Positions 1 to 13,060 of a stretch of 18,923 nt of DNA are shown piece by piece. The notes beneath the pieces were generated by a model. The model was not told the origin of the DNA. It saw only the letters and a program-made list of their open reading frames with translations, and searched no databases. Every line of letters starts with the position of its first letter. Within the stretch, counting starts at the first letter, position 1. The DNA is from Synergistaceae bacterium (GTDB lineage Bacteria; Synergistota; Synergistia; Synergistales; Aminobacteriaceae): contig JAFVEW010000005.1 in NCBI GenBank assembly GCA_017475805.1, positions 1 through 18,923 of the forward strand, in the 5' to 3' direction. Both the position numbers and the translations under genes were made by a program.

Positions 1-24
1 AAGCAATAAGCGCGGTGGTACTCG

Positions 25-405
25 ATGCATGACGATAGAACAACTAATAAAAACTTGCCGCTGCCTAATCGAGATAATGTGCTTGCAGATGACGTTGAAA
101 GAATTAGAGAGGCTTTTAATTCCATAGATACGGAGCTTGCAGGCATTGAAAATCAAATTTCAGAGCTTCCTGAAAACATTAATACAAAATTATCGGAGCT
201 TAAAGAGGAAATTAATAAACAAAATATTCTCTCAAAATTGGGTTTCTATATCGATGATGAGGGTTATTTAGCTCAAAAGATAGTCAAAGAAGAAACACCC
301 GACGATCCTGAAGCTCCTACAGTTTTAATAAATGGCAAACCCGCCACACTAACCACTAAAGCAGACATCCAAGAATTATTGGGTGAACTTGACTTCGGTC
401 AATAA
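25..405 (+). CDS. Small phage tail-fibre-associated protein with coiled coil
   Basis: A 126-residue protein with no enzymatic motif. Residues 11-35 (LPLPNRDNVLADDVERIRE) resemble the start of many phage tail-fibre and tail-appendage proteins. Residues about 36-70 have heptad spacing of hydrophobics and probably form a coiled coil, as in trimeric fibres. Residues 72-86 (LGFYIDDEGYLAQKI) are followed by an acidic stretch, and the same motif with acidic tail recurs in the gene at 1167-1397. The start is ATG at 25, with a weak GGTGG about 6 nt upstream. The bases before it (AAG CAA TAA at 1-9) may be the end of an upstream gene. Position ahead of a tail gene and the DGR target supports a structural tail role. 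The precise function is unknown. Confidence 0.7.
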   Translation: MHDDRTTNKNLPLPNRDNVLADDVERIREAFNSIDTELAGIENQISELPENINTKLSELKEEINKQNILSKLGFYIDDEGYLAQKIVKEETPDDPEAPTVLINGKPATLTTKADIQELLGELDFGQ

Positions 406-464
406 CGGGTTGTGTACAGACCTTTTATTGAATAAATTAATTTAATCTGGAGGTATTTTTTACT

Positions 465-1118
465 ATGTCCAATTACAATGAAAACAGCGTTTTACAATTT
501 GGTCGTCTCAAAGAGTTCGGTCAGGCAGTCGCTGGCGAAATTTCAAAGTTAAAAACTGCGTCAGGCAGCGCGATTAAGTATGTCAGCGTTGCAAATAACA
601 CCGTCAGCTTCTTTACAAGCACCGACGGCTCAGGAACAGCAGCTTTCTCGTTTAACTTCCCGAACGAACTTGTCCTTGACCAACTCAAAACAACGTTTGT
701 TCCCCACTTTGCATTTAGCTCCGAGACATATGCAGGCGCAACTAATCCGAGCTTAGAAGGCAAACCCGTTTTAGTTATCGCGGTCAAAGACACAAACGCG
801 GCCGGAACTACAACGACAAACTACAGCTTCCTTAACATGGAAGACTTAATCGATATTTACACTGCCGGAGACAACTCAATCAACATCGACGGCTACAATA
901 TCAGCGTCAAAGTAAGCGCGACAACTGGCAATCACTTAACGCTCAATAACGACGGCCTCATGGTTGACGTTTCAGACAAAGTCGACAAAGTTGAAAATGC
1001 CACTGCAGGAAATATTCCCGTAATGACTGAAGCGGGCGGAATTTCTGATAGCGGCTATACTTTTGCAACATCTGCCGACGTTACGGAACTTAATAACGAA
1101 TTATTCCCGTCAGCATAA
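465..1118 (+). CDS. Phage tail-fibre-like structural protein
   Basis: A 217-residue protein rich in Ser, Thr, Asn and Gly, typical of beta-structured phage appendages. Residues 1-30 are predicted helical (LKEFGQAVAGEISKLK). The middle is beta-rich. Residues about 138-195 contain repeated short strands (INIDGYNISVKV, LTLNNDGLMVDV) and a segment KVDKVENATAGNIPVMTEAGG, which resembles linkers in phage tail fibres. A strong Shine-Dalgarno (GGAGG, 450-454) precedes ATG 465. A hairpin terminator follows the stop codon. It lies between two short tail genes and upstream of the DGR variable protein, so it is probably part of the same appendage. I cannot assign a named family. Confidence 0.7.
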   Translation: MSNYNENSVLQFGRLKEFGQAVAGEISKLKTASGSAIKYVSVANNTVSFFTSTDGSGTAAFSFNFPNELVLDQLKTTFVPHFAFSSETYAGATNPSLEGKPVLVIAVKDTNAAGTTTTNYSFLNMEDLIDIYTAGDNSINIDGYNISVKVSATTGNHLTLNNDGLMVDVSDKVDKVENATAGNIPVMTEAGGISDSGYTFATSADVTELNNELFPSA

Positions 1119-1130
1119 GTTTTCTTTTTC

Positions 1131-1156
1131 AGGCAGGCTCTTGGGCTTGCCTTTTT
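1131..1156 (+). terminator. Rho-independent terminator after the tail gene
   Basis: The stem AGGCAGGC (1131-1138) pairs with GCTTGCCT (1145-1152), with one G-U wobble and a 6-nt loop, followed by a T run. It lies just after the stop codon at 1118 and only 11 nt before the next ATG. Confidence 0.75.
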
Positions 1157-1166
1157 ATTTTTTATC

Positions 1167-1397
1167 ATGAGTAGAGAAGTCTTTATAAAAAATCAAATTA
1201 AGAGCTTGCTTGCCTCAAGCAAAACTGATACAGCTACTAAATTTTCTACACTTAACGCCGCTCTTGAAGACATGTTCGGGCAAGTTAATGATGAATTAGT
1301 ATCTTTAAGAAATAGTGTAGGTTTATTTTATACAGACGCAGAAGGCTACGTATGTCAGAGAATAACAGAGGAGGAGGAAGAAGGAAATAATGAGTGA
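1167..1397 (+). CDS. Small acidic-tailed phage tail protein
   Basis: A 76-residue protein. The N-terminal half is helical (IKNQIKSLLASS, FSTLNAALEDMFGQV). Residues 52-66 (GLFYTDAEGYVCQRI) match the motif of the protein at 25-405 and are again followed by an acidic tail (TEEEEEGNNE). No Shine-Dalgarno is visible before ATG 1167, because the upstream terminator occupies that space; a later start or translation on read-through transcripts is possible. It overlaps the DGR target gene by 8 nt, and its Glu-rich codons (GAGGAGG, about 1370) provide that gene's ribosome binding site. It may be a chaperone or structural partner of the variable protein, but this is only inferred from coupling. Confidence 0.6.
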   Translation: MSREVFIKNQIKSLLASSKTDTATKFSTLNAALEDMFGQVNDELVSLRNSVGLFYTDAEGYVCQRITEEEEEGNNE

Positions 1398-2496
1398 TTC
1401 AAATAATGTAGATGTTAGGGTAGCTACAGATGCTACGCTTGCCACACTTGCTAAAGACGCAACGCTGGCAACTATCGCAAAGGACGCGACACTGAGCAAT
1501 GTAAAAACTGCAATCGACAATTTAGTAGCAGCTGTAGAAAATCAAGGCGGCGGCGGAGGCTCAGGCGGCGGAGCAACTATCTCTAATAGTACAGTAAACA
1601 TTACAAGCGGTGGCAATACAATTACCGGCGGAGAAACTAAAATTACGGGTGCTAATCTCGAAACTAAAATCACCGGCGGTACAACGCATATTTATGGCGG
1701 AAACTTCACAGTTGACGGCGTTCCTGCCGTTTTAGCTTCGAATATTTACGATGCATTAGATAACTCGATTTTTGCAACTGTAGCGTTAGCGGCACAGGCT
1801 CATAACGCCTATTACCGCGAAAACAACTTAGGTGAAGCACCAACGGCAGTACAACTTGCGGCCATCCGTGCAGGAACATTCAAAGGCTTATATCCAGGTG
1901 ATTACTGGGAACGTAGCATAACTTACAATAATGCCGACGGTGCGTCCGTAACAGATACCGTCAGAATGAGAATTGCACATATTAATTACCCGAGAGACGG
2001 TGCTACACCGAATATTATGGTAATTCCTGAATACTGTTTATACAACGCTAAAATGGAAGATAGTAATACGAACGCAAACGGCTATAGAGGTTCTAAGATG
2101 TATACGACCTATTTAGCGGCGGCTATCGCAGTGTTCAAGGCTTTCTTTGGAGAAGAAAATCTCTTACCGTATACAATAGATTTGAGTACTGCGTCAGGAG
2201 GTTCTTTTGTGTCGACATCAGGACGCATTGTTGACTTGTTAAACCAATATCAGGTTTTTGGCACAGCCGGAAGTTATGGTAAGGCTGCAGACCCCGAGCA
2301 GACACAGCTTGCAATATTTAAGTTGAATACTGAACTTATAAAAGCTAAGCTAAAAAGCGTAGGTAGTTTTACTTACTGGTGGACTCGAGACCCGTATAGC
2401 TCCAACCTCTTCGCCCACGTCTATCCTTCGGGCGCGGCGTCCAACCTTAACGCGTCTCACTCGTGTGGCGTTCGCCCTGCTGCCCTTATCGGTTAA
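1390..2496 (+). CDS. DGR-diversified phage tail/adhesin protein (variable protein)
   Basis: A 368-residue probable receptor-binding tail protein and target of the diversity-generating retroelement. Residues 12-36 hold three repeats of (K/T)DATLATxA. Residues 53-61 are a glycine-rich linker. Residues 63-112 contain short beta repeats with NITSGG, TITGGET and TKITGG. Residues about 165-366 form one domain that ends with YWWTRDPYSS and GVRPA. That pattern resembles the DUF6273 / C-type-lectin-like folds used by DGR targets (family recognition from memory). Residues 335-364 are encoded by the variable repeat. Versus the template, ten residues are changed: N to L, N to H, N to Y, T to P, T to A, N to S, N to L, N to H, Y to C and D to A. 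Start ATG 1390 overlaps the upstream gene and has an AGGAGG-like site at about 1370-1376. Confidence 0.88.
   Translation: MSDSNNVDVRVATDATLATLAKDATLATIAKDATLSNVKTAIDNLVAAVENQGGGGGSGGGATISNSTVNITSGGNTITGGETKITGANLETKITGGTTHIYGGNFTVDGVPAVLASNIYDALDNSIFATVALAAQAHNAYYRENNLGEAPTAVQLAAIRAGTFKGLYPGDYWERSITYNNADGASVTDTVRMRIAHINYPRDGATPNIMVIPEYCLYNAKMEDSNTNANGYRGSKMYTTYLAAAIAVFKAFFGEENLLPYTIDLSTASGGSFVSTSGRIVDLLNQYQVFGTAGSYGKAADPEQTQLAIFKLNTELIKAKLKSVGSFTYWWTRDPYSSNLFAHVYPSGAASNLNASHSCGVRPAALIG
2390..2481 (+). repeat. DGR variable repeat (VR)
   Basis: The last coding segment of the variable protein. It aligns without gaps to the template repeat at 3158-3249 (offset 768). Differences from TR over 2392-2480 are at 2407, 2408, 2416, 2422, 2425, 2437, 2440, 2441, 2446, 2447, 2458, 2465 and 2480, and all correspond to adenine in TR. 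Just outside this stretch, 2391 is also an A-to-C change. The invariant GC-rich end (TGGCGTTCGCCCTG, 2466-2479) probably acts as the site where mutagenic homing begins (IMH), as known for the Bordetella phage DGR. Confidence 0.95.
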
Positions 2497-2500
2497 TCAG

Positions 2501-2533
2501 TAAATCTACGTAGGCTTGTCCTACGTAGATTTA
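2501..2533 (+). promoter_or_regulatory. Perfect hairpin/cruciform downstream of VR
   Basis: TAAATCTACGTAGG (2501-2514) is followed by a 5-nt loop (CTTGT) and its exact reverse complement (2520-2533). It begins 20 bp after the end of the VR and 4 bp after the stop codon. No T run follows, so a plain terminator is less likely. In the Bordetella phage BPP-1 DGR, a DNA hairpin shortly after the VR promotes target recognition. This stem is longer and its loop differs from the GRNA tetraloop described there. The equivalence is inferred from position. Confidence 0.7.
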
Positions 2534-2536
2534 GCC

Positions 2537-2563
2537 TTGACATACTTAGAACGCGGTTATAGT
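2537..2563 (+). promoter_or_regulatory. Candidate promoter for accessory gene, TR and RT
   Basis: TTGACA at 2537-2542 and TATAGT at 2558-2563 are separated by 15 bp, shorter than ideal. It would transcribe the helical protein gene, TR and reverse transcriptase. A second hairpin (CCGCCG, loop CTTG, CGGCGG; 2576-2591) lies in the predicted leader, followed by the GGAGG at 2612-2616. Confidence 0.45.
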
Positions 2564-2575
2564 TTTTTTGTTGTT

Positions 2576-2591
2576 CCGCCGCTTGCGGCGG
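2576..2591 (+). other. Small GC hairpin in the accessory-gene leader
   Basis: CCGCCG and CGGCGG flank a CTTG loop. The loop shares CTTG with the larger hairpin at 2501-2533. A T run precedes it rather than follows it, so it is not a plus-strand terminator. Its function is unknown; it may be an RNA leader structure or a DNA recognition feature. Confidence 0.5.
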
Positions 2592-2623
2592 TCGCTATAT
2601 ATAGGATTTTTGGAGGTTAGAAA

Positions 2624-3145
2624 TTGTCAAAGTCAAAGAAGAATGAGAGTTTTGAGGTTTTAAGAGACGCAATAATAATTCGCAGCAAAATAACGAACGT
2701 ACTGAAATTTTTAGCATTGCAGTCTCAAAAGCGTTTTGAATTTCTCAGTGAAAATTTGACAAAGGCGACGACTGACGAAGAAATCCTAAAAGCGAAAGAA
2801 ACTATGAGAGAAGAACGTTTTAATCTATGGCTCATCAAAGAAGAATGTCAAACTGTTGCGTCCAAAGGCTCGGAATTAACAAGCAGCTTAAGAACAGCTA
2901 ACACAATCTGGCCTACTTACATGAGTGAGTTCACGGAGCGTAGAAATTATATGAATAAGGCTATGGCGGCCTGCAATGTCTTACAGGACGAACTGCAATA
3001 TGTAGCTCAGTCCGTCTATGCTGATAAAAATAAATTCACAGCTCTCGTACTTGAAATTGAAGCGTTGTTCAAAAAAATTAAAAGTGTGAGGCAAGCTGAT
3101 AATCGTTTCTTAAAACAGCTAAATGACGTTAATGAACAAAAATAG
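2624..3145 (+). CDS. Helical basic protein in the avd position of the DGR (candidate accessory protein)
   Basis: A 173-residue, almost entirely helical protein that is slightly basic by residue count (29 Lys/Arg, 24 Asp/Glu). It starts at TTG 2624, 7 nt after GGAGG. It lies between the variable gene and the template repeat, exactly where avd lies in many DGRs. Avd is a small four-helix-bundle protein that binds the reverse transcriptase and DGR RNA. This protein is longer than the usual ~120-130 residues and I see no clear Avd sequence signature. It could be a divergent Avd or an unrelated phage protein. Helical segments lie around residues 10-45, 50-85, 95-130 and 133-165. TR begins only 12 nt after its stop, so both are probably on one transcript. 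Confidence 0.6.
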   Translation: MSKSKKNESFEVLRDAIIIRSKITNVLKFLALQSQKRFEFLSENLTKATTDEEILKAKETMREERFNLWLIKEECQTVASKGSELTSSLRTANTIWPTYMSEFTERRNYMNKAMAACNVLQDELQYVAQSVYADKNKFTALVLEIEALFKKIKSVRQADNRFLKQLNDVNEQK

Positions 3146-3157
3146 GGTGTTTCTTGT

Positions 3158-3249
3158 AACCGTATAGCTCCAACAACTTCGCCAACGTCAATACTTCGGG
3201 CGCGACGAACAACAATAACGCGTCTAACTCGTATGGCGTTCGCCCTGAT
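3158..3249 (+). repeat. DGR template repeat (TR)
   Basis: A non-coding template with 24 adenines in 3160-3248, of which 13 differ from the VR copy; no C, G or T in that stretch differs. Read in the VR frame it encodes nine Asn codons (AAC/AAT). Those codons are typical in DGR templates because adenine mutagenesis turns Asn into many residues but never into a stop codon. The shared end TGGCGTTCGCCCTG is at 3234-3247. Beyond it the sequences diverge, including at a non-adenine site (3250, T in TR versus G in VR), which marks the edge of transfer. Confidence 0.95.
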
Positions 3250-3440
3250 TCACTTACTGCACATTTTGAGTAAAATTCTCGCGTGCAGGTTAAGGGAAGG
3301 AAGAAACATCCTTTCAGGTTAAAACCTGATAAATGCCGATCATCTTGACACAGTTACGACTGGGGTTTTAGCGTTCGTCTCTTGTTTATGGACGCAGATG
3401 GTTTAGACTTTCTCTAAGAGACAGAGGGAGGTCTTTTTTT
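3250..3440 (+). ncRNA. TR-RT spacer, structured part of the DGR RNA
   Basis: This 191-nt stretch has no gene. In characterised DGRs the region 3' of TR is needed to prime and support cDNA synthesis. Pairings visible here: CTGCAC (3257-3262) with GTGCAG (3283-3288), enclosing ATTTT (3263-3267) with AAAAT (3272-3276); TCAGGT (3314-3319) with ACCTGA (3324-3329) and loop TAAA; and GTCTCTT (3377-3383) with AAGAGAC (3416-3422). A TTGACA at 3345-3350 has no convincing -10 partner. The reverse transcriptase ribosome binding site (GGGAGG, about 3426-3431) ends it. The role is inferred from known DGRs; the pairings are seen directly. Confidence 0.65.
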
Positions 3441-4685
3441 ATGATTTTTCTTGATGCCAATGTAATTTATGAGGCAATGCACAAGACTATAAAAAGCAGT
3501 GATAAAGATAGATACATAACACAGTTATATCAGGTTAATCACTTGCTTTACACGGCCATGCTGCAGGAAGCATTGCGCGATGGAACTTACAAACCTAAAC
3601 TTGGCAATAAATTTGTACTTTCTGAACGTGGTAAAACGCGCTTTGTTACGAATAATAAATTCGACGATAAGGTCATTAATCACGTTATTTGCGATGAAAT
3701 TTTAACGCCTGCTCTAAAAAGATTTTTAATCCATGACAACGGAGCTTCTCAGAAAGGCAAAGGAGTAAGTTTTCACCGGCAGCGTTTTGAAAAGCACTTG
3801 CGGGATTATTTTAAGGAGCACGGTACAAACGAAGGATTTATTTTGCTCGGCGATTTTTCAGGCTACTATGCGAATATCCGGCATGATAAATGTGCAGAAG
3901 TTTTGGCGCATTTCTTAAAACGTTCAAATTTTCCTGTTGAAGATTTGAAAAAGGCTTGGAACATTTTGACGGGAATTTTTCAGACATACAGAATAGACGT
4001 CAGCCGATTTTCAGATGAAGAAATTAGAGCCATGTATACACAAAAAGTTGACACTATGATGAATTTTGGTGTTGATGAAAGTTTGCTTACAGGCGAGAAA
4101 TTTCTCACTAAAGGCGTTGACATCGGCAATCAGACTTCACAAAATATCGGCGTAGCGTTTCCATACCGCATTGATAATTACGCTAAAATTATTGCGGGTA
4201 TCAAAGGCTACGGACGCTATACAGATGATTTTTACGCCATTGCAAATAATAAAGAAACACTAAAAAATCTGCTTGCAAATTTCAACGCTATAGCTCAAGA
4301 ATACGGGATTATTATCAATGAACGAAAAACAAGAATTGTAAAACTTTCAGGCTTTTATCGTCATTTACAAAACGGATATTCACTAACCGACACAGGACGA
4401 GTAATTTGTAAGATAAATCCAAAGTCTATCACGCGCGAACGCCGCAAGTTAAAGGCATATAAACGGCTTTTAGACGCGGGAAGAATTACATATGACGAGA
4501 TAGAAAATATTTTCAAAGGCTGGATATGCGCAAATTATAAAAGAATGTCGCATCGGCAGATTTTTAATATGTCAGAACTTTATTTTAATTTATTTGGGAG
4601 GAAGCCGAAATGGCGAATGAAAAGAAAAAAAACACATTCACGATTACGTTGGCTGATGGAACACAGATCACCGACTTGGGACTAA
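3441..4685 (+). CDS. DGR reverse transcriptase
   Basis: A 414-residue reverse transcriptase that copies TR RNA into adenine-mutated cDNA for transfer to VR. Catalytic motifs are clear: ILLGDFSGYYANI (134-146, first catalytic Asp 138) and YTDD (260-263, the YxDD box). GNQTSQ (229-234) ends in SQ where group II intron enzymes usually have QGxxxSP; that SQ form is characteristic of DGR enzymes. INERKT (292-297) and LSGFYRHL (302-309) match the later palm/thumb motifs. No maturase or endonuclease domain follows. Start ATG 3441 has GGGAGG upstream. The C-terminal ~25 residues overlap the next gene by 76 nt; that gene's ribosome binding site lies inside this coding region. Its neighbours (TR, VR gene, helical protein) make the assignment firm. 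Confidence 0.95.
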   Translation: MIFLDANVIYEAMHKTIKSSDKDRYITQLYQVNHLLYTAMLQEALRDGTYKPKLGNKFVLSERGKTRFVTNNKFDDKVINHVICDEILTPALKRFLIHDNGASQKGKGVSFHRQRFEKHLRDYFKEHGTNEGFILLGDFSGYYANIRHDKCAEVLAHFLKRSNFPVEDLKKAWNILTGIFQTYRIDVSRFSDEEIRAMYTQKVDTMMNFGVDESLLTGEKFLTKGVDIGNQTSQNIGVAFPYRIDNYAKIIAGIKGYGRYTDDFYAIANNKETLKNLLANFNAIAQEYGIIINERKTRIVKLSGFYRHLQNGYSLTDTGRVICKINPKSITRERRKLKAYKRLLDAGRITYDEIENIFKGWICANYKRMSHRQIFNMSELYFNLFGRKPKWRMKRKKTHSRLRWLMEHRSPTWD

Positions 4686-4963
4686 CCGGCAACTGCTTTA
4701 TAAGCGAAAAGCCAATTACAGTGCAGGATTTTAGCGGAAAACTAAAAAATGTCGTTATTTCATGCTCCGATGAAGAATATCGCGATAAATATAATCTTGT
4801 CGGAAGCCATGATTACATGGAGCTTTTAAGCTGCGAACAGAGCAATATCGAAGGTTACGAAGGCAAATATTTATTTGTATTGCGCGGACTAACACGTCAA
4901 GAAGTCCGCGACATAGAAATTGACGCGAGGCTTGATTATCACGAAATGATGTTGGAGGCTTAA
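4610..4963 (+). CDS. Conserved-looking small phage tail protein
   Basis: A 117-residue protein of unknown function. After a lysine-rich start (MANEKKKN), residues 9-35 (FTITLADGTQITDLGLTG) are beta-rich, as in small tail-associated proteins of Firmicutes phages. The C-terminal half is acidic (EVRDIEIDARLDYHEMMLEA). ATG 4610 follows GGGAGG (4595-4600) located within the end of the reverse transcriptase gene, giving a 76-nt overlap and probable translational coupling. It is followed after 3 nt by the XkdX-like gene. In related phages a gene of this size often precedes the XkdX gene in the tail module, so a tail role is likely, but no family name can be given. Confidence 0.65.
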   Translation: MANEKKKNTFTITLADGTQITDLGLTGNCFISEKPITVQDFSGKLKNVVISCSDEEYRDKYNLVGSHDYMELLSCEQSNIEGYEGKYLFVLRGLTRQEVRDIEIDARLDYHEMMLEA

Positions 4964-4966
4964 ACA

Positions 4967-5107
4967 ATGAGTGAGAAATTTGAAGAAGTTAAAAAGTATT
5001 TTGATATGGGATTTTGGACAGAACAAAAATTGAAATATGCCGTGAAAAAAAGCTGGATAACAGCAGGAGAATTTAAGAGTATCACGGGCAAAGAATACAG
5101 CGAGTAA
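4967..5107 (+). CDS. xkdX: XkdX-family small phage protein
   Basis: A 46-residue protein. Its sequence, with KYFDMGFWTEQKLKYAVKK then WITAGEFKSITGKEY, matches the typical XkdX pattern (YxxGxWTxxxVxxAVxxGxIT, then xEYxxITG). XkdX proteins are short and occur at the end of tail modules in Firmicutes phages and PBSX-like elements. Their molecular role is not established. The gene begins 3 nt after the previous stop; the AUG is preceded by GGAGG (4953-4957) within the upstream gene. It is followed by a strong terminator, which closes the tail/DGR transcription unit. Confidence 0.85.
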   Translation: MSEKFEEVKKYFDMGFWTEQKLKYAVKKSWITAGEFKSITGKEYSE

Positions 5108-5145
5108 ATGCCATTTCTAAATGAAACCCCTTAATTAATTTTTTT

Positions 5146-5181
5146 ATAGAGAGCTTCGATTTTGAGGCTCTCTATTTTTAT
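5146..5181 (+). terminator. Rho-independent terminator ending the tail/DGR unit
   Basis: The perfect 9-bp stem ATAGAGAGC (5146-5154) / GCTCTCTAT (5167-5175) encloses a 12-nt loop and is followed by TTTTTA. It separates the tail module from the lysis genes. Confidence 0.85.
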
Positions 5182-5200
5182 ATTTCTATGGAGGCAGAAA

Positions 5201-5533
5201 ATGTTTGAAAAAATCGCTAAATTCAAAGAGTGGATTATTGAAAAAGCCATTGAGCAGGTACTTTGGGCGGAGAAAAATTTGCGCGGTAAAACAGGCGCAG
5301 AAAAGAAAGCCGCTGTCGTTAAAAAACTCGATGACATGGTAGAGCTTCCTTTTTATCTCGAATGGGCTGACGACATGGTCTTTTCGTGGCTTGTTGATAC
5401 TGTCTGCGAAAAGCTAAATGCGCTCACAGGGCACAAATTTGCGAATTTAGTTTTGTCTGACGCTCAAGAGATAGAAATTGCTGGAAGCATTGAAATTCCT
5501 GAAGGTTTTATAAAGGAGAAAAATCATGACTAA
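5201..5533 (+). CDS. Small phage protein upstream of the lysin, unknown function
   Basis: A 110-residue protein. The first part is helical and amphipathic (KFKEWIIEKAIEQVLWAEK). It is followed by a basic segment (LRGKTGAEKKAAVVKK) and a helix with many aromatics (YLEWADDMVFSWLVD). No clear transmembrane segment is present. The G..KK spacing recalls the cytoplasmic part of some small phage holins, but the membrane helix of those proteins is absent, so I do not assign that function. The correct start is ATG 5201 with GGAGGC at 5190-5195; the longer in-frame start would lie inside the terminator. It overlaps the lysin gene by 8 nt, so it belongs to the lysis module. Confidence 0.65.
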   Translation: MFEKIAKFKEWIIEKAIEQVLWAEKNLRGKTGAEKKAAVVKKLDDMVELPFYLEWADDMVFSWLVDTVCEKLNALTGHKFANLVLSDAQEIEIAGSIEIPEGFIKEKNHD

Positions 5534-6101
5534 CGAAGAAAAATTCGAGCGTTCAATAGAATTTTCTTTGAAGTGGGAAGGCGGCTTGAATTTTAACATC
5601 GTGAACGGCAAGCCCGTGTTAAAAAATTACGCAAAAAACGACTTGGGCGGGGCGACTGCTTACGGCGTAACTTGGGCAACGCTCAAAACTGCTTATAAAG
5701 TCGGTATTGTCGCACATGATGATATTTGTAAATTGACACCTGACGAAGCAAAATTAATTTATAAAAAGAATTACTGGGATAAATACGGCTGGGAGCAGCT
5801 TGAATGGCCGGTGTGCTTATGCTGTCTTGATTGCTGCATTAATCACGGGCAATTTGCCTTTATCCTGCAGAGAGCGGCTATCGATTGCGGTCAGTCTGTT
5901 GTTATTGACGGTAAGTTCGGGCCGAAAACTTTTGCGGCTTTGAAAGCCTGTCCGCCGATGACGCTTGCAAAGGCAATTTACATACAGCGCAAAAAATATT
6001 ATCAAAAAATTGTTGCCCGCAATCCGAGTCAAAACGTTTTCTTAAAAGGCTGGCTTCGTCGTGCTGACGAAATGGCAAGAAAATCGGGTGTTATTTCATG
6101 A
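5526..6101 (+). CDS. Phage endolysin, GH108-type N-acetylmuramidase
   Basis: A 191-residue peptidoglycan hydrolase that cleaves the glycan backbone at host lysis. Residues 12-20 contain KWEGG with the catalytic Glu 18. The motif DLGGATAYGVT (39-49) completes the GH108 signature. From about residue 86 to the end is a PG_binding_3-type domain (CINHGQFAFILQRA, then DGKFGPKTFAAL). Size fits the family. There is no signal peptide, so export depends on the holin. A cluster of five Cys within eight residues (97-104) plus two more is unusual for this family. It overlaps the upstream gene by 8 nt and the holin by 4 nt (ATGA). Its TGA stop shows that TGA is a normal stop codon here. Confidence 0.88.
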   Translation: MTNEEKFERSIEFSLKWEGGLNFNIVNGKPVLKNYAKNDLGGATAYGVTWATLKTAYKVGIVAHDDICKLTPDEAKLIYKKNYWDKYGWEQLEWPVCLCCLDCCINHGQFAFILQRAAIDCGQSVVIDGKFGPKTFAALKACPPMTLAKAIYIQRKKYYQKIVARNPSQNVFLKGWLRRADEMARKSGVIS

Positions 6102-6514
6102 CAGATTATTTAGAATATATTGCAGGATTAATCGGAGCATTAGCCGGATATTTTTTCGGCGGCTTTGACGGCCTGATAAAGGCTCTAATTGCCTTTGCAG
6201 TCGTCGATTATTTTACAGGAATGGCGGCGGCTTGGTATTCTAATGAGCTATCATCTCAAATAGGCTTCAAAGGAATTTTGAGAAAAGTTACGATGTTCGT
6301 ACTCGTCGGAGTTGCTCATATAGTAGATAGAGAACTAGTCAGCAAAGTTTTAGGCAACGCGGCAATTTTGCGCGAGGGCGTGCTTTATTCTTTTCTCGTA
6401 AACGAAACTTTATCAATTATCGAAAACGCGAACAAGATGGATATTCCGATGCCTGAAGTCCTAACAAAACACCTTTTGCAAATTAAGAATAAACATACAG
6501 AGCCCTTGAAATAA
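6098..6514 (+). CDS. Phage holin (phage_holin_4 / TcdE-like type)
   Basis: A 138-residue membrane protein that releases the endolysin to the cell wall. Hydrophobic segments lie at residues about 6-22, 27-46 (ALIAFAVVDYFTGMAAAW) and 66-80 (VTMFVLVGVAHIVD). The pattern DYxTGxxAAWxxxELSSxxGFKGxxRK is typical of this holin family. The C-terminus is hydrophilic and lysine-rich. The gene starts inside the lysin's stop codon (ATGA), so translation is coupled. The lysin-then-holin order is less common than the reverse but occurs. Confidence 0.88.
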   Translation: MTDYLEYIAGLIGALAGYFFGGFDGLIKALIAFAVVDYFTGMAAAWYSNELSSQIGFKGILRKVTMFVLVGVAHIVDRELVSKVLGNAAILREGVLYSFLVNETLSIIENANKMDIPMPEVLTKHLLQIKNKHTEPLK

Positions 6515-6524
6515 ATCTCCTTAA

Positions 6525-6568
6525 AATAGCCTTGCTAAAAAATTAAAACAGAGCAAACATAGGCTATT
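6525..6568 (+). promoter_or_regulatory. Stem-loop before the gene at 6592
   Basis: AATAGCCT (6525-6532) pairs with AGGCTATT (6561-6568), with an inner TGCT/AGCA pairing (6533-6536 with 6552-6555). No T run follows directly. It may act as a terminator for the lysis unit or as a leader structure for the downstream gene. Confidence 0.45.
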
Positions 6569-6591
6569 ACTCAATAAAGGAGGTTTTATAA

Positions 6592-6846
6592 ATGAAAAAT
6601 CCCGAATTAATGAACGAAAACGGCGAAGCTGAAAATCTCACGATTTTATTTCACAGAGATTACTGCACCGTTATCGCAATTCAGGACGCAACGGAAGAAA
6701 GCGTGACGGGCAATGAACTTGTTGAGAAGCTAAATAAATTAAGACTATTTAGCCTTTTCAGGCTCGACCGTGAAACGTCCGAGTATGCCCGTCTTGTAAC
6801 TACGGACTGCTGGGGCAAAACGCATTATTTTAAGGCATGGAAATGA
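6592..6846 (+). CDS. Hypothetical small prophage protein
   Basis: An 84-residue protein with a very strong Shine-Dalgarno (AAGGAGG, 6577-6583) before ATG 6592. It has a beta-alpha-beta appearance (LTILFHRDYCTVIAIQDA, then a helix ELVEKLNKLRLF, then YARLVTTDCW) and no recognised motif. It follows a leader stem-loop after the holin and converges with the HTH gene on the other strand. Its stop is TGA. The function is unknown; location after the lysis genes suggests an accessory prophage gene. Confidence 0.6.
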   Translation: MKNPELMNENGEAENLTILFHRDYCTVIAIQDATEESVTGNELVEKLNKLRLFSLFRLDRETSEYARLVTTDCWGKTHYFKAWK

Positions 6847-6850
6847 CCAA

Positions 6851-6880
6851 AAGCACAGGCTTAAGACTTAGCCTGTGCTA
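6851..6880. terminator. Convergent-gene hairpin terminator
   Basis: The perfect 10-bp stem AGCACAGGCT (6852-6861) / AGCCTGTGCT (6870-6879) has an 8-nt loop. Read on the minus strand it is followed by TTTTGG. It overlaps the last codons of the minus-strand HTH gene and separates it from the convergent gene ending at 6846. Confidence 0.65.
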
Positions 6881-7223
6881 TTATTGTCTCTATTTTTCTG
6901 ACTTCTTTGATTAAAATTTTCAGGGAGCGTAAAATTTCAAGCTCGATGTTCTTTTTACCCGCCAATGGATTATCCGAATTCTCATCATCGATATAACTCT
7001 CCTCCTTGATTTTTTCTGCTTCACGTCTGCGCTTCCAAATGGCCGCGAAGCCTTGCGGAGCTTTCACGTAATTTTCTACGGAATTTCGCGGAATGAACCA
7101 TTGATGCCCGATCCGTTTTGCGCCTTCAAATTTATCTTTACGGCACAATAAAGAGATTGATTCTTTTCTGTAGTTGAGAATCTTGGCCGCCTCATCTGCC
7201 GAAATGTATTCGTCAATATCCAT
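6861..7223 (-). CDS. Excisionase-like HTH DNA-binding protein
   Basis: A 120-residue protein. Residues 5-55 form a MerR/excisionase-like helix-turn-helix: YISADEAAKILNYRKESISLLCRKDKF with RIGHQWFIPRNSVENYV. The central 'sadEAAkiL' and 'hqWfIPr' pattern is typical of HTH_17-type domains. A basic segment follows (KRRREAEK), then a C-terminal helix rich in Leu, Ile and Lys (ILRSLKILIKEVRKIETIIAQA) that may mediate oligomerisation. The start has a good site (GGAGG on the minus strand, about 7228-7232). It is transcribed opposite to its neighbours. It may be the phage excision factor or a small regulator; proximity to the integrase supports the former, but they are not adjacent. Confidence 0.7.
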   Translation of the reverse strand: MDIDEYISADEAAKILNYRKESISLLCRKDKFEGAKRIGHQWFIPRNSVENYVKAPQGFAAIWKRRREAEKIKEESYIDDENSDNPLAGKKNIELEILRSLKILIKEVRKIETIIAQAKS

Positions 7224-7279
7224 TTTTTACCTCCGTTTATTTTATTTTTTATTTTATCATAATTTATTAAAAAATATAC

Positions 7280-7308
7280 TTGATTTTATATTAAATTAGA
7301 GTGAAAAT
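7280..7308 (+). promoter_or_regulatory. Cassette promoter 1 (TTGATT-17-GAAAAT)
   Basis: TTGATT (7280-7285), 17 bp, GAAAAT (7303-7308). The surrounding ~75 bp to the start codon, including a conserved leader (AACGCAGTAATAATCATAAAGG), recur before three other genes. The repeated conservation is the main support, because the -10 is unusual. Confidence 0.65.
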
Positions 7309-7356
7309 AGCATTATCAAACGAAAACGCAGTAATAATCATAAAGGAGAGTTAAAA

Positions 7357-7554
7357 ATGTCAACAAACAATCAGAACGTAATCAACGAAGAAATCAAGGA
7401 GCAAATCCTTGCGGTACGCGCAACTGGCCTCGTCAACATGCTGGATATAAACGGTATTCAGCGGGTAGCATTCGAAAACGATTTTTACGATCTTGTCTGC
7501 TTCATCGAAGAAAACAAGAAAGCCTACGCGGATTTTATCCTTCACGGGGAATAA
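7357..7554 (+). CDS. DUF5049-like small prophage protein
   Basis: A 65-residue protein. The segment EEIKEQILAVRATGLVNMLD followed by VQRVAFE-like (IQRVAFENDFYDLVCFIEENKK) matches the short proteins called DUF5049 in Firmicutes phages (recognised from memory). No function is established for the family. It has a strong ribosome binding site (AAAGGAGAG) and stands alone between its own promoter and a hairpin terminator, as the first of four similar cassettes. Confidence 0.75.
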   Translation: MSTNNQNVINEEIKEQILAVRATGLVNMLDINGIQRVAFENDFYDLVCFIEENKKAYADFILHGE

Positions 7555-7556
7555 AG

Positions 7557-7580
7557 ACGGGGATTTTCCCCGTTATATTT
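7557..7580 (+). terminator. Terminator of cassette 1
   Basis: ACGGGGA (7557-7563), loop TTT, TCCCCGT (7567-7573), then TATATTTTTA. Nearly identical hairpins follow the next two cassettes. Confidence 0.85.
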
Positions 7581-7616
7581 TTATGGATATTCTATTTGAA
7601 ATAAATAAAAATAAAC

Positions 7617-7645
7617 TTGACTTTATATTAATTAAGAGTGAAAAT
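7617..7645 (+). promoter_or_regulatory. Cassette promoter 2 (TTGACT-17-GAAAAT)
   Basis: TTGACT (7617-7622), 17 bp, GAAAAT (7640-7645). An upstream AT-rich block (TATTTGAAATAAATAAAA) and the downstream leader are shared with the copies at 8112 and 8613. Confidence 0.7.
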
Positions 7646-7693
7646 AACATCATCAAGCGAAAACGCAGTAATAATCATAAAGGAGAGTTAAAA

Positions 7694-8047
7694 ATGTTAG
7701 TAATCAAAGAATACGACGAAATCATCAACAGCGACGGCAAAAACTATGACGCGACAAGTTTCAATGGCAAGCTTTTCTGGGCTTATAGGAACAGCAAAGA
7801 CGCAGGAAATGAAATGCTAAACTTCGACGACAATTGCAGTGAAAACGATATCGAGCAGATTGCGAAGTTACTAAGAAAATTCGCAATCACAGAATTCACG
7901 ATTTCTTCTACTTGGTCGAGCTTACTTGAAACGCTTGCTTCATTCGATGAAAAAGGCATTAAAATGCAGGGCATCGTAAGGGTTTATGAACACACGAATT
8001 GCCGCCAACGAAAGAAAATTCCGGCAATCCTCATGAGAGTTGAATAA
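7694..8047 (+). CDS. Prophage cassette protein, paralog A
   Basis: A 117-residue protein of unknown function. It is closely related to the protein at 8189-8536: both begin ML(V/A)IKEYD and share FNGxxFxAYxxSKxAGNEMLNF, then LLETLASFD, then KKIPAILM at the C-terminus. The fold looks alpha/beta (ITEFTISSTWSSLLETLASFDEKGIKMQG). I recall similar acidic proteins in Firmicutes phages but cannot name a function. The frame is open further upstream, but that stretch crosses a terminator and the promoter, so ATG 7694 after AAAGGAGAG is the start. It stands alone with its own promoter and terminator. Confidence 0.75.
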   Translation: MLVIKEYDEIINSDGKNYDATSFNGKLFWAYRNSKDAGNEMLNFDDNCSENDIEQIAKLLRKFAITEFTISSTWSSLLETLASFDEKGIKMQGIVRVYEHTNCRQRKKIPAILMRVE

Positions 8048-8051
8048 AATG

Positions 8052-8076
8052 ACGGGGATTTTCCCCGTTATTTTTT
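8052..8076 (+). terminator. Terminator of cassette 2
   Basis: ACGGGGA (8052-8058), loop TTT, TCCCCGT (8062-8068), then TATTTTTTA. It matches the hairpin at 7557-7573. Confidence 0.88.
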
Positions 8077-8111
8077 ATAAATATTCTATTTGAAATTAAA
8101 TAAAAATGGAC

Positions 8112-8140
8112 TTGACTTTACATTAATTAAGAGTGAAAAT
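8112..8140 (+). promoter_or_regulatory. Cassette promoter 3 (TTGACT-17-GAAAAT)
   Basis: TTGACT (8112-8117), 17 bp, GAAAAT (8135-8140), with conserved flanks (TTTGAAATTAAATAAAAAT upstream; ACGACCATCAAGCG downstream). Confidence 0.7.
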
Positions 8141-8188
8141 ACGACCATCAAGCGGAAACGCAGTAATAACAACAAAGGAGAGTTAAAA

Positions 8189-8536
8189 ATGTTAGCAATT
8201 AAGGAATACGACGACTACCTCAACAGCAACGGCAGAGAATACAACGCGGCAACTTTCAATGGCACTATCTTCGGAGCTTACCTACGCAGCAAAGAGGCGG
8301 GGAACGAAATGTTGAACTTCGAGTGGTGTTTTGATGAGGACGAAATCAAGCAGATTGCGAAGTTACTGAAACAATCCGCAATCACGGAATTCACACTTTC
8401 TTCAACTTCTACGGCTTTGCTTGAAACCCTTGCTTCATTCGACAAACAAGGCATCAAAATACAGGGATTTGTTACGGTTAATGAATTTGAACGTCCGCAA
8501 AAGAAAATCCCGGCAATCCTTATGAAAATTGAATAA
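8189..8536 (+). CDS. Prophage cassette protein, paralog B
   Basis: A 115-residue paralog of the protein at 7694-8047. Shared blocks are IKEYD, then YNAATFNGTIFGAYLRSK, then EAGNEMLNF and SALLETLASFDKQGIKIQG, ending KKIPAILMKIE. It differs mainly in the surface segments after residue 45 and near the end. This suggests duplication followed by divergence of the exposed parts. The start at ATG 8189 after AAAGGAGAG is set by alignment with paralog A. The function is unknown; a secreted or membrane role is unlikely because no signal or membrane segment is visible. Confidence 0.75.
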   Translation: MLAIKEYDDYLNSNGREYNAATFNGTIFGAYLRSKEAGNEMLNFEWCFDEDEIKQIAKLLKQSAITEFTLSSTSTALLETLASFDKQGIKIQGFVTVNEFERPQKKIPAILMKIE

Positions 8537-8542
8537 AAACGG

Positions 8543-8567
8543 CGGGGATTTTCCCCGTCATTTTTCG
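8543..8567 (+). terminator. Terminator of cassette 3
   Basis: CGGGGA (8543-8548), loop TTT, TCCCCG (8552-8557), then TCATTTTT. Third copy of the GGGGATTTTCCCC hairpin. Confidence 0.85.
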
Positions 8568-8612
8568 CTCCTTTTTTAGAAAAATCTTATTTTGAAATTT
8601 AATAAAATATAC

Positions 8613-8641
8613 TTGACATTTTATTAATATAGAGTGAAAAT
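8613..8641 (+). promoter_or_regulatory. Cassette promoter 4 (TTGACA-17-GAAAAT)
   Basis: A consensus TTGACA (8613-8618), 17 bp, and GAAAAT (8636-8641). It retains AGAGTGAAAATACGACCATC like copy 3, then diverges in the leader. Confidence 0.7.
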
Positions 8642-8692
8642 ACGACCATCGAACGAAGAAATACAGTAAACATCGAAAAGGAGCAAATAAAA

Positions 8693-8992
8693 ATGAAAGA
8701 AAGAATGTATGATGAAAGAATCGATTTTTGCATCGAAGAAGGAATGGGAAAAGAGATCGTCGGAATGGTCATAAAGGAAGTTCTCAGTATCGGGAAAAGA
8801 AGTTTTACAATTTGCGGTGAGATTTCCGATTGTGTCGAACTTCTTGCGGAATTTGAAAAACAAGGCGCAAATGTTCGAGGTTTAATACATCTCGAAAACA
8901 GCATTGAAGAAAACGGAGCATACAGGGAATTTACCTATCCGGCAATTCAAATGAAAATATCCAACCGCTTAAAATATAGAAGGACGGCTTAA
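8693..8992 (+). CDS. Prophage cassette protein, divergent paralog C
   Basis: A 99-residue protein. Its C-terminal half (KRSFTICGEISDCVELLAEF, EKQGANVRGLI, then YPAIQMKI) lines up with paralogs A and B (TEFTISST, LLETLASFD, KGIKMQGIV, IPAILMRV). The N-terminal part is shorter and lacks the FNGxxFxAY block. It starts at ATG 8693 with AAAAGGAG upstream. The last residues (RLKYRRTA) run into the terminator stem. It is the fourth monocistronic cassette under the repeated promoter. Function unknown. Confidence 0.7.
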   Translation: MKERMYDERIDFCIEEGMGKEIVGMVIKEVLSIGKRSFTICGEISDCVELLAEFEKQGANVRGLIHLENSIEENGAYREFTYPAIQMKISNRLKYRRTA

Positions 8993-9008
8993 CGCCGCCG
9001 TCTTTTTT
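8983..9008 (+). terminator. Terminator of cassette 4
   Basis: GACGGC (8983-8988) pairs with GCCGTC (8997-9002), followed by TTTTTT. The stem overlaps the stop codon of the gene ending at 8992. It differs in sequence from the three GGGGATTTTCCCC terminators. Confidence 0.85.
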
Positions 9009-9026
9009 GAATTTTGAGTTGGATAT

Positions 9027-10166
9027 CTATAAATTATCGAGCCAATCTGCCCACCACTGCATGATTTTAGTTCGTTCCGGCATATATTCAGCGTGATTAT
9101 ATGCCCCGCGCACTGAATTATTTTCGACGTGCGCAAGCTGTCTTTCAATTACGTCTCTATTCCAGCCGTGTTCGTTGGCTATTGTCGAGAACATAGCGCG
9201 GAAGCCGTGAGGCGTGATTTGCTCCTTTGTAAATCCCATGACTCTCAATGCTATACGAACTCCGTTATCAGACATACATTTCCCGTCGTTTCTCGGTGAG
9301 GGGAAAAGATAACGTCCTTTGCCAGTCAAAGGGGTTAATTCTTCGAGAATTTCCTGAACTTGTCGCGATAACGGTACAATATGCCGACGTTTCATCTTCA
9401 TTTTTTCTGCGGGAATTTCCCATACATCTCCATTAAACTCACTCCATTCAGCCGAACGAGCTTCACCTGGACGTACGAATGTATATACAGAAAAAAGCAG
9501 TGCACAACGCATAATTGTATAAGGATACGCTTTAATGGCTTTCATAAGAATTGCTATATCACTTGGATTTGTCAAAGTTGCGTAATGGTTTCTGTGTAAT
9601 GGTTTTAGAGCACCATTAAGTGCGTAAGTCGGATCGAATTTTATCAAATCAGACGCGACTGCAAATTTAAATATCTGCCCTGTGATAATTTTTACACGCC
9701 TCGCAGTTTCTTCATGGCCGTCATTTTCAACATTTCGACAAACTTGTAAAACGTCTTTTGGCGTAATCTCTCCTATCGGCATTTCACCTATAAAGGGCAA
9801 TATATGCTTTTTGAGACGAAGCTTAACCATTTTCATGTAACTTTCGGCTTTATCGCTCATGCGAACTTTCAACCATTCATTCATAACTTCTGAAAAAGTT
9901 TCAAGCCGCTTATCTGCTCTACGAGAAAGGCTTTCACCTTTTGCTCTTTGTGTTTGAAGCTCATCGCGTTTAATACGTGCGTCTTTGAGTGATAAATCAG
10001 GATAGGGGCCGAGCGAAATTTGACGTTCTTTTTTATTTTCCCAATATCGAAAAATCCAATATTTCCGCCCTGAGGGATCAACTCTCAAATTTAGCCCACG
10101 ATCATCACGAAGCATGTAATATTTTTCCTTAGGTTTTGCACTCTTTACCTGCAACTCAGTCAACAT
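9027..10166 (-). CDS. int: P4-type tyrosine integrase
   Basis: A 379-residue site-specific recombinase that inserts and excises the prophage. Residues 1-85 form the DUF4102-type arm-binding domain (LTELQVKSAKPKEKYYMLRD, then SLGPYPDLSLKDAR). Residues about 90-180 are the core-binding (SAM-like) domain. Residues 195-375 are catalytic: Arg 232 in RPGEAR, a Lys around 257-259 in MKMKRRHIVPLS, HGFR (320-323), His 346 in LAHV, and the nucleophile Tyr 356 in AYNHAEY. Length is normal. The gene starts about 190 bp from the 3' end of tRNA-Thr(GGT) and reads away from it, the usual layout for this integrase class at a tRNA attachment site. Its ribosome binding site is weak. It marks the right end of the prophage. 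Confidence 0.93.
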   Translation of the reverse strand: MLTELQVKSAKPKEKYYMLRDDRGLNLRVDPSGRKYWIFRYWENKKERQISLGPYPDLSLKDARIKRDELQTQRAKGESLSRRADKRLETFSEVMNEWLKVRMSDKAESYMKMVKLRLKKHILPFIGEMPIGEITPKDVLQVCRNVENDGHEETARRVKIITGQIFKFAVASDLIKFDPTYALNGALKPLHRNHYATLTNPSDIAILMKAIKAYPYTIMRCALLFSVYTFVRPGEARSAEWSEFNGDVWEIPAEKMKMKRRHIVPLSRQVQEILEELTPLTGKGRYLFPSPRNDGKCMSDNGVRIALRVMGFTKEQITPHGFRAMFSTIANEHGWNRDVIERQLAHVENNSVRGAYNHAEYMPERTKIMQWWADWLDNL

Positions 10167-10193
10167 TAGAAAACACCATCCTTTTTCGTTTGA

Positions 10194-10241
10194 CCGTAGA
10201 AAAAAATTTCTCGTAATTTCTTTCTACGATTTTTTCTACGG
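10194..10241. promoter_or_regulatory. Inverted and direct repeats upstream of the integrase
   Basis: CCGTAGAAAAAA (10194-10205) and TTTTTTCTACGG (10230-10241) form a perfect 12-bp inverted repeat. A third copy of the core, TTTCTACGA, is at 10221-10229. These may be arm-type binding sites for the integrase or excisionase, or an operator controlling the integrase gene. The assignment is inferred from location. Confidence 0.5.
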
Positions 10242-10292
10242 TAGTATATCGGTTTTAGTCGGTTTTTATAATTCTTTATCGGGGTAATAAAC

Positions 10293-10315
10293 AAAAAAGA
10301 CCGCTTCTTAAGCGG
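10293..10315 (-). terminator. Terminator of the tRNA operon (minus strand)
   Basis: CCGCTT (10301-10306) and AAGCGG (10310-10315) form a stem with a 3-nt loop. On the minus strand it is followed by TCTTTTTTG (10292-10300). It lies 38 bp past the tRNA-Thr 3' end and before the integrase, so it also insulates the integrase from tRNA transcription. If integration occurs at the tRNA 3' end, this terminator came with the phage. Confidence 0.75.
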
Positions 10316-10352
10316 ATTTCTATTCTCTATCGGTTCTCACCGAGTTATCTTC

Positions 10353-10428
10353 TGGAGCCGATTTTCGGATTTGAACCGAAGACCCCATCCTTACCATGGA
10401 TGTGCTCTGCCGGCTGAGCTAAATCGGC
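10353..10428 (-). tRNA. tRNA-Thr (anticodon GGT), probable phage attachment site
   Basis: A 76-nt minus-strand tRNA with encoded CCA. The acceptor stem pairs GCCGATT with AATCGGC. The anticodon stem CATCC/GGATG holds a loop with GGT. The T arm has GGTTCAAATCC. Its 3' end faces the integrase, so it is the probable bacterial attachment site; the second att copy must lie outside the window. Confidence 0.93.
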
Positions 10429-10434
10429 AAAAAC

Positions 10435-10520
10435 TGGTGGTGGAACATGGATTTGAACCATGGTAGACTCTCGTCGACAGATTTACAGTCTGTTGCCATT
10501 GACCACTCGGCCATTCCACC
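10435..10520 (-). tRNA. tRNA-Tyr (anticodon GTA)
   Basis: An 86-nt class II tRNA with a long variable arm and encoded CCA. The acceptor stem is GGTGGAA/TTCCACC. The anticodon loop CTGTAAA contains GTA between ACAGA and TCTGT. Confidence 0.95.
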
Positions 10521-10542
10521 GTTTTATCCTATCTCTTTTCAC

Positions 10543-10618
10543 TGGAGCCGGCGAGGGGACTTGAACCTCCGACCTGCTGATTACAAGTCAGCTGCTCTAC
10601 CAACTGAGCTACACCGGC
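10543..10618 (-). tRNA. tRNA-Thr (anticodon TGT)
   Basis: A 76-nt tRNA with encoded CCA. The acceptor stem is GCCGGTG/CGCCGGC (one G-C, T-G type end pair). The anticodon loop CTTGTAA gives TGT between GCTGA and TCAGC. It is the first gene of the tRNA operon. Confidence 0.95.
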
Positions 10619-10632
10619 CTCAACGCTAGAGA

Positions 10633-10662
10633 ATTTTATCACGGTGATTTTTATTCTGTCAA
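10633..10662 (-). promoter_or_regulatory. Promoter of the tRNA operon
   Basis: On the minus strand, TTGACA (10662 down to 10657), an 18-bp spacer and TAAAAT (10638 down to 10633), with TG one base before the -10. Transcription would start about 8 nt before the first tRNA. Confidence 0.8.
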
Positions 10663-10702
10663 GACAAAATATTTTTTTGTTCTATGATAATCTTTGACGA
10701 GC

Positions 10703-10726
10703 ATACGTATAGGGCTGTACGTATAT
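10703..10726. promoter_or_regulatory. Paired TACGTA elements in the tRNA-argC intergenic region
   Basis: Two copies of the palindromic hexamer TACGTA (10704-10709 and 10718-10723) lie 14 bp apart, just after a TTGACG (10694-10699). They may be an operator for the arg genes or part of a promoter, but the known ArgR box is not a clear match. Confidence 0.35.
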
Positions 10727-10809
10727 CTTGATTAGCGTCAGTAGGGTTACTAAACGTTGACAATTATTATAAAATACTTGCGAAAAAAATTTTAGGAGTT
10801 GTGAATATT

Positions 10810-11718
10810 TTGACAAAAATTTTCATCGACGGGAGTGCCGGGACTACAGGTCTTCAAATTTATGACAGATTAAAACAGCGCGACGACATTCAAATTTTAG
10901 AAATTTCTGAAGAAAATCGAAAAGATAATGACGCCCGAAAAGATTTTTTTAATGAGGCCGATATAGCTTTTCTTTGTCTTCCTGATGCCGCTGCCATCGA
11001 AGCTGTAACGCTCGCCCTGAATAAAAAGACAGTCATCATTGACACTTCGACAGCTCACAGAGTTTCAGAAGGCTGGGCTTATGGTATGCCTGAATTAAAA
11101 GGTCAGAGAGAAATTATTAAAAATTCAAAGAGAATAGCTAATCCCGGCTGTCATGCAAGCGGCTTTATTGCTCTTGTTGCACCGTTGATTGAAAATAAAA
11201 TTTTAAGTCCTGAGGAAAAACTTTCGTGTTTTTCTATAACAGGTTACTCTGGCGGCGGCAAAAAAATGATAGCCGAGTACGAAACTCAAGGACGAGATAT
11301 TCTGCTTGACGCTCCGAGACAATATGCTCTAACGCAAAATCATAAGCATCTGCCTGAAATTCAAAAAATTTGCGAATTAAATCACGCGCCGATATTTTGT
11401 CCTATTGTTGCGGATTTTTATTCAGGAATGGAAGTTACTGTGCCGATTCATGATGTTAATATTAAAAAAATTTGTGAAGTCTATGAAAATTATTATCACG
11501 GCGGAGTAATTCATTTTAATAATGATGATAATGAAAAATTTTTATCGGCTTCAGCTTTTTCAGGGCGCGATGACATGGAAATTAAAGTCGCAGGCAACGA
11601 CGAGCGAGTTTTATTAATTGCGCGTTTCGACAACTTAGGCAAAGGAGCTTCGGGCGCGGCCGTTCAGAACATGAATTTAGTCATGGGCGTCGATGAATTT
11701 AAGGGCTTAAATCTTTAG
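10810..11718 (+). CDS. argC: N-acetyl-gamma-glutamyl-phosphate reductase (short type)
   Basis: Catalyses the NADPH-dependent reduction of N-acetylglutamyl phosphate, third step of arginine synthesis. About 302 residues, the size of the short (type 2) ArgC rather than the ~345-residue type 1. Counting from the TTG start, the nucleotide-binding loop GSAGTTG is at 8-14. The catalytic Cys is in NPGCHASGF (Cys 114). The substrate region includes GYSGGGKKMI, and HLPEI supplies the usual histidine. An in-frame GTG at 10801 lies only 2 nt from AGGAG (10794-10798), too close, so TTG 10810 (MTKIFIDGSAGTTG) is the more likely start. argJ and argB follow on the same strand. Confidence 0.92.
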   Translation: MTKIFIDGSAGTTGLQIYDRLKQRDDIQILEISEENRKDNDARKDFFNEADIAFLCLPDAAAIEAVTLALNKKTVIIDTSTAHRVSEGWAYGMPELKGQREIIKNSKRIANPGCHASGFIALVAPLIENKILSPEEKLSCFSITGYSGGGKKMIAEYETQGRDILLDAPRQYALTQNHKHLPEIQKICELNHAPIFCPIVADFYSGMEVTVPIHDVNIKKICEVYENYYHGGVIHFNNDDNEKFLSASAFSGRDDMEIKVAGNDERVLLIARFDNLGKGASGAAVQNMNLVMGVDEFKGLNL

Positions 11719-11753
11719 TCTTGATTTATTAATTTCAGAAAGGAAAAATTTTA

Positions 11754-12993: not shown

Positions 12994-13001
12994 AAAGCAA
13001 G

Positions 13002-13029
13002 TAGGAATTAGGAGTTAGGAAGTAGGAAG
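13002..13029 (+). repeat. Heptamer repeat tract, copy 1
   Basis: Four tandem heptamers TAGGAAT, TAGGAGT, TAGGAAG, TAGGAAG, preceded by AAAAAGCAA. The same arrangement recurs at 15784-15804. The last unit can pair with ACTTCCT (13043-13049) to form a hairpin. Confidence 0.7.
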
Positions 13030-13054
13030 TAAAAATTTTCTAACTTCCTTGCCT

Positions 13055-13060
13055 TATAAT
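13055..13060 (+). promoter_or_regulatory. Candidate -10 box before the small membrane gene
   Basis: TATAAT lies 24 nt before ATG 13085. No clear -35 hexamer is visible 16-18 bp upstream, so this is a weak promoter call. Confidence 0.35.

Follow-up and report, generated by a model that had tools for sequence, protein, structure and literature searches.

Much of the literature that we found on target recognition and complementary DNA (cDNA) initiation by diversity-generating retroelements (DGRs) concerns BPP-1. One study describes a BPP-1 spacer that folds and recruits the complex of reverse transcriptase (RT) and Avd, with cDNA priming at an adenine inside it (PMC12875486). Guo et al. 2011 describe hairpins of phage DGRs with GC-rich stems of 7-10 bp and 4-nt GRNA loops, and report that homing fell near background once the GAAA loop of BPP-1 was replaced by CTTT or made 2 nt longer (PMC3240598). 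Here we examine 18,923 nucleotides of a Synergistaceae bacterium (GenBank assembly GCA_017475805.1, contig JAFVEW010000005.1, positions 1 to 18,923 of the forward strand; this whole stretch is called the window), in which a cassette in positions 1390-4685 is almost certainly the DGR of a prophage. The cassette is complete in its parts and ordinary as a DGR, while the branch to which it belongs is a useful variant through its covarying spacer RNA and the five-base loop of its hairpin.

The cassette and its repeat pair

The cassette lies entirely on the + strand and runs from a target gene of 368 aa (1390..2496) through a 173-aa Avd-like gene, a template repeat (TR; 3158..3249) and a spacer to the RT gene, and the target, Avd-like and RT reading frames are all open. 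The variable repeat (VR; 2390..2481) occupies the 3′ end of the target coding sequence and alters its residues. Between 2392-2480 of the VR and 3160-3248 of the TR there are 89 columns without gaps and 13 differences, every one at a TR adenine (7 A>C, 4 A>T and 2 A>G), with 11 of 24 adenines and 65 of 65 non-adenines unchanged. On the number of columns and the restriction to adenines our recount agrees with an earlier note on this DNA. The chance of 13 out of 13 differences hitting 24 of 89 sites is P 1.8e-9. Over the longer pair, 2390-2481 and 3158-3249, all 14 differences fall on the 26 adenines, the last being the junction difference discussed below, and a repeat finder that gives adenines no weight also returned the pair (family D5).

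The earlier note had ascribed all 13 differences to mutagenesis, with ten changed residues near the C-terminus of the target. Ten codons do change (residues 340-364 of 368), but the terminal difference, A3248>C2480, has another origin. Of the 27 scorable pairs among 29 family pairs, the window included, 26 have C and one has T at this site of the VR, so that A3248>C2480 belongs to a fixed VR/TR 3′ junction and not to mutagenesis, to which 12 differences and 9 residues are therefore left. The resemblance between VR and TR ends directly after this base. A junction with C in the VR and A in the TR fits the initiation of mutagenic homing (IMH) and IMH* sites of BPP-1, and by that analogy it may act as an IMH.

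The TR is built for its task. When 3160-3248 is read in frame with the target, 12 of the 24 adenines fall at codon position 1, 12 at position 2 and none at position 3; the adenine codons are mainly AAC and AAT, each with 15 possible residues, and a stop codon can be reached from none of the 14. The same holds across 29 family TRs, some of them nearly identical, where codon positions 1-2 take up 682 of 698 adenines and none of the 390 adenine codons is convertible to stop. As for the target itself, its C-terminal part matches Pfam DUF6273 (PF19789), its structure model is poor, and a C-type lectin fold is not among the listed matches. The position of the gene suggests that it is probably a tail fibre or receptor-binding protein. 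The earlier note had called it a tail protein, a name based on position: in a phage described below, the homologous cassette follows tail genes.

How recently the system acted is a separate matter. The count of 0 of 65 non-adenine differences bounds VR/TR divergence at less than about 4.5% (95%), which bounds recency for this contig but does not give the date of the last event; present-day activity of this copy is suggested by its sequence alone. Recent variation is seen in relatives. These are relatives of the element, outside the window's own lineage, compared as 15 locus pairs with an identity of 88% or more across some 1,100 bases counted from the TR end, and of 95% or more in 10 of the pairs. 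In seven sibling pairs (95-100% identical downstream), the VRs differ at 104 sites and the TRs at one in total, as predicted in the earlier note, which expected VR to vary and TR to stay constant. In these seven, 98 of the 104 VR differences fall in columns with adenine in both TRs (162 of 593 columns), and L068 and L070, identical over 1,101 bases, have all nine of their VR differences at adenine columns. The other three pairs at or above 95% are comparisons within L072-L074, with identical VR and TR and hence no variation. In the last five of the 15 pairs, which are 89-92% identical, the TRs differ at 1 or 5 sites and the VRs at 16-21, adenine columns accounting for 14 or 15 of the latter.

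Across 35 loci taken together, adenines account for 469 of 484 VR/TR differences, a figure favoured by a pair finder that is biased toward such pairs. The finder reported no pair in L003, L005, L007-L012, L015-L017, L043-L049, L051, L052, L056, L057, L064, L069 and L078; several of these loci are cut short upstream, three (L003, L007 and L011) are the fused loci described below, and L012 has a TR and VR on manual check. Six contigs (L002, L004, L005, L008, L009 and L070) start within or just ahead of a VR, TR or spacer, which is what assembly breaks at a polymorphic VR would produce.

Spacer RNA, reverse transcriptase and Avd-like protein

The element between TR and RT (3247..3404, +) is a structured RNA with strong covariation. 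An alignment of 33 sequences, from which the closest duplicates were omitted, gives a family consensus of five helices and 31 pairs, four of the helices covarying and one, helix 2, invariant and hence uninformative on covariation. Pairing cells make up 96.3% of this alignment, compared with 75.3% after shuffling and 36 to 50% when it is slid by one to three columns; changes on both sides occur at 26 of the 31 pairs, and compensatory cells number 254 vs 80.5 in shuffles. None of 500 shuffles matched any of five such measures, all of which are favoured by a structure derived from the same alignment and by the kinship of the sequences.

A covariance model of the element (R1) matches between TR and RT in 49 of the 53 loci searched, a set that takes in the training members and some loci truncated at the 5′ end; the four without a match are L010, L043, L044 and L078. 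The window, a member of the training set, gives a full-length match (model positions 1-140, 95.6 bits), and R1 also matches weakly in the distant DGR of L096-L098. Rfam 15 has no family at gathering score for the window spacer, and of two sub-threshold matches at E up to 5 one, Glutamine-II at 14.1 of 33 bits, overlaps the spacer end. By its position, this RNA would be the counterpart of the BPP-1 spacer, and covariation over 33 sequences supplies comparative structure for a type of RNA described in BPP-1.

The RT (414 aa; 3441..4685, +) carries the motifs IGNQTSQ and YTDD, which align with those of BPP-1 Brt (hhalign E 5.7e-10), and YTDD and SQ are invariant across 10 RTs. We take xGxxxSQ and YxDD to be motif labels of a DGR-type RT. 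Its relatives are mostly in assemblies titled Synergistaceae, Synergistales or Fretibacterium, the closest being 84% identical and many titles naming ruminants; others are in virus contigs, in a single assembly titled Ruminococcus and in a single one titled Candidatus Liminaster. This distribution points to a probable Synergistaceae host for the prophage. In the family to which L001's genome belongs, 20 of 81 genomes gave an RT match at E 0.001, although several matches are weak. The Avd-like gene (2624..3145, +; TTG start) encodes a predicted four-helix bundle that has no match to Pfam bAvd (PF22296) at E 0.001; a database protein, P0010, is 99% identical to it. With the same profile, the Avd proteins of BPP-1 and YPCBV-1 match and the annotated Avd of Roseburia phage Shimadzu does not.

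Some relatives show these parts in other arrangements. In three loci (L003 8587-9918, L007 8596-9930 and L011 1-1062), a target open reading frame (ORF) with a VR-like repeat continues into the TR 3′ flank and the spacer RNA; neither a separate TR nor an Avd-like gene is seen between target ORF and spacer, and the source assemblies (G003, G007 and G008) lack an Avd-like match. Either recombination between VR and TR removed the intervening gene or the assembler collapsed the repeats; if these fused loci are real, the spacer would be part of the target message. The assembly G009 holds DGR pieces on separate contigs: an open RT frame and TR without spacer RNA, amid chromosomal genes (L010 9870-11245), an Avd-like gene, TR and spacer with a broken RT start (L114 7500-8421), and a phage target gene with a VR and no cassette directly behind it (L115 179-1525). 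The VR of L115 agrees with the TR of L114 at non-adenine sites (48 bases compared).

The hairpin behind the variable repeat

Behind the VR lies a hairpin (2501..2533, +) with a 14-bp stem, five of whose pairs are G/C, and the loop CTTGT; its DNA fold has a z of -5.7, and none of 200 shuffles was equally stable. We scanned 32 of the 37 loci that bear a repeat pair, near-duplicates included and L073, L074, L077, L085 and L087 omitted, and in 31 of them a loop of five bases caps the best hairpin, the exception being L014 with six bases. The loop reads CTTGT in 18 loci, TTTAT in 6, CTTGC and CTCGT in 2 each, and three further sequences once each. A stricter search for perfect stems gives a five-base loop in 30 of the 32, whereas mononucleotide shuffles yield a stem of at least 6 in 16% of cases and such a stem with a five-base loop in 1.1%. 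The stem sequences vary (21 distinct) while the loop is kept.

Applied to other DGRs, this script returns the known GAAA loop for BPP-1 and, for YPCBV-1, GGCA, a loop of the GRNA form. It finds CTCGT in Shimadzu and in L096-L098 and TTTAT in L099, and stems of only 3-5 in Lelie, Brigit and nd12. The hairpin of the window shares with the BPP-1 type an inverted repeat behind the VR, but has neither a GC-rich stem of 7-10 bp nor a GRNA loop, and the hairpin of its family departs from the published GRNA description. A literature search combining DGR, hairpin and pentaloop returned no paper, which does not show that the five-base loop is unpublished. Set beside the loop mutants of BPP-1, five-base loops in 31 of 32 loci are a counter-example offered by nature, through which the part played by the loop can be tested.

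One tentative reading, which we put somewhat below even chances, is that DGRs use at least two target-recognition codes, a GRNA tetraloop as in BPP-1 and a five-base loop of the CTTGT/TTTAT/CTCGT type, with loop, spacer and RT/Avd having co-evolved as a matched set. Carriers of the five-base code would then possibly be prophages of the Synergistaceae type and phages of Acutalibacter and Roseburia, with a spacer RNA and Avd branch of its own in the window's family; this part of the two-code reading we hold with the same reserve.

If the cassette works as the BPP-1 studies suggest, a ribonucleoprotein, priming in the spacer, error-prone copying and retrohoming would all be involved. The RT and the Avd-like four-helix protein would assemble on a transcript that contains the Avd-like 3′ end, TR and structured spacer; cDNA would be initiated inside the spacer, and the TR would be copied with errors opposite adenines. 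This cDNA would take the place of the VR in the 3′-terminal part of the tail gene, with the 3′ junction of the VR and the hairpin that follows it as the likely guides.

Rival readings, surroundings and known systems

A DGR that has been silenced recently would also have a real adenine pattern, in a copy whose retrohoming has ceased through a defect of the prophage or a cassette that is switched off. Some observations point this way: the window begins within phage genes, leaving the completeness of the prophage unseen, and decayed relatives exist, among them L010 without spacer RNA, G040 with stops in its RT match, and L012, where TR adenines account for 13 of 29 differences in the aligned stretch and at least four of the rest lie inside the repeat, so that adenine strictness is not universal in the family. 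With the three frames open, the spacer match full-length, the hairpin intact and no non-adenine site changed between VR and TR, however, we regard silencing of the window's copy as unlikely.

The two more radical alternatives dispense with a DGR altogether. Two repeat copies 768 bp apart could in principle be an ordinary duplication whose copies drifted apart through mutation, gene conversion or damage biased to adenine, with no retroelement at work. Yet the differences are confined to adenines of one copy and go to all three other bases, the RT, Avd-like gene and spacer RNA adjoin the repeats, and the pattern recurs in relatives; the one-copy restriction, at the probability given above, together with the cassette makes this view untenable, and its chance is close to nil. 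An RT of the defence or group II type beside an unrelated repeat is very improbable. It would accord with the best NCBIfam matches of the enzyme, to group II maturase (40 of 300 bits) and Drt4 (28.7 of 450 bits), which are far under the cut-offs, and with PDB sequence matches in which a group II maturase (E 3.3e-7) outranks the BPP-1 RT (8ub7_A, E 0.0063). Against it stand the profile alignment to Brt, the spacer RNA between TR and RT in nearly all loci, and TR/VR pairs in the tested phage relatives.

The surroundings of the DGR are those of a prophage. The window is probably an entire contig, since a protein database entry for the target lists 18,923 bases for its longest contig. A 117-aa ORF (4610..4963, +) overlaps the RT end and is probably a neighbouring phage gene, not a DGR-specific component; an endolysin (Glyco_hydro_108; 5526..6101, +) and a holin (6098..6514, +) follow. 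Farther along, a tyrosine integrase (9027..10166, -) adjoins three tRNA genes (10353-10618) and probably marks the right end of the prophage, and chromosomal genes such as argJ come after this region. Between holin and integrase, three DUF7698 genes stand in tandem (7233-8992), each after a similar leader, and a fourth leader copy precedes a DUF5049 gene. Beyond the tRNA genes, argJ is in two ORFs of different frames (11754-12993; profile positions 1-50 and 79-377), from either a frameshift or an assembly error, and one protein (14521-15726, -) has a STAS domain and an APH-type phosphotransferase domain.

Among the closest described systems is the BPP-1 DGR (mtd, avd, TR, brt; NC_005357), which shares with the window the gene order from target through avd and TR to RT, adenine-only TR/VR differences, a tail gene with the VR at its 3′ end, a homologous RT, a hairpin behind the VR and a spacer between TR and RT. 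The two differ in the hairpin loop (CTTGT vs GAAA); BPP-1 has no match to R1, and the Avd-like protein and target of the window have no detectable sequence similarity to its Avd and target. Counted on the alignment with Brt, the RT of the window is also longer by about 50 residues ahead of the SQ motif, of which 44 are contiguous. Shimadzu (LR596903) has an annotated Avd and RT, a TR/VR pair and the loop CTCGT; its RT is 34.5% identical to that of the window, and it has no match to R1.

Acutalibacter phage Fontainebleau (ON453893), whose host is Acutalibacter muris, has an RT 53% identical to that of the window and an adenine-type TR/VR pair with 16 adenine and 3 other differences. In the stretch of its annotation shown, the RT is named, while Avd, repeats and DGR are not. 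Its homologous cassette stands after tape measure and minor tail genes and before holin and amidase, and contains the same spacer RNA as the window (131 bits, a training member) and a hairpin with the loop CTTGC.
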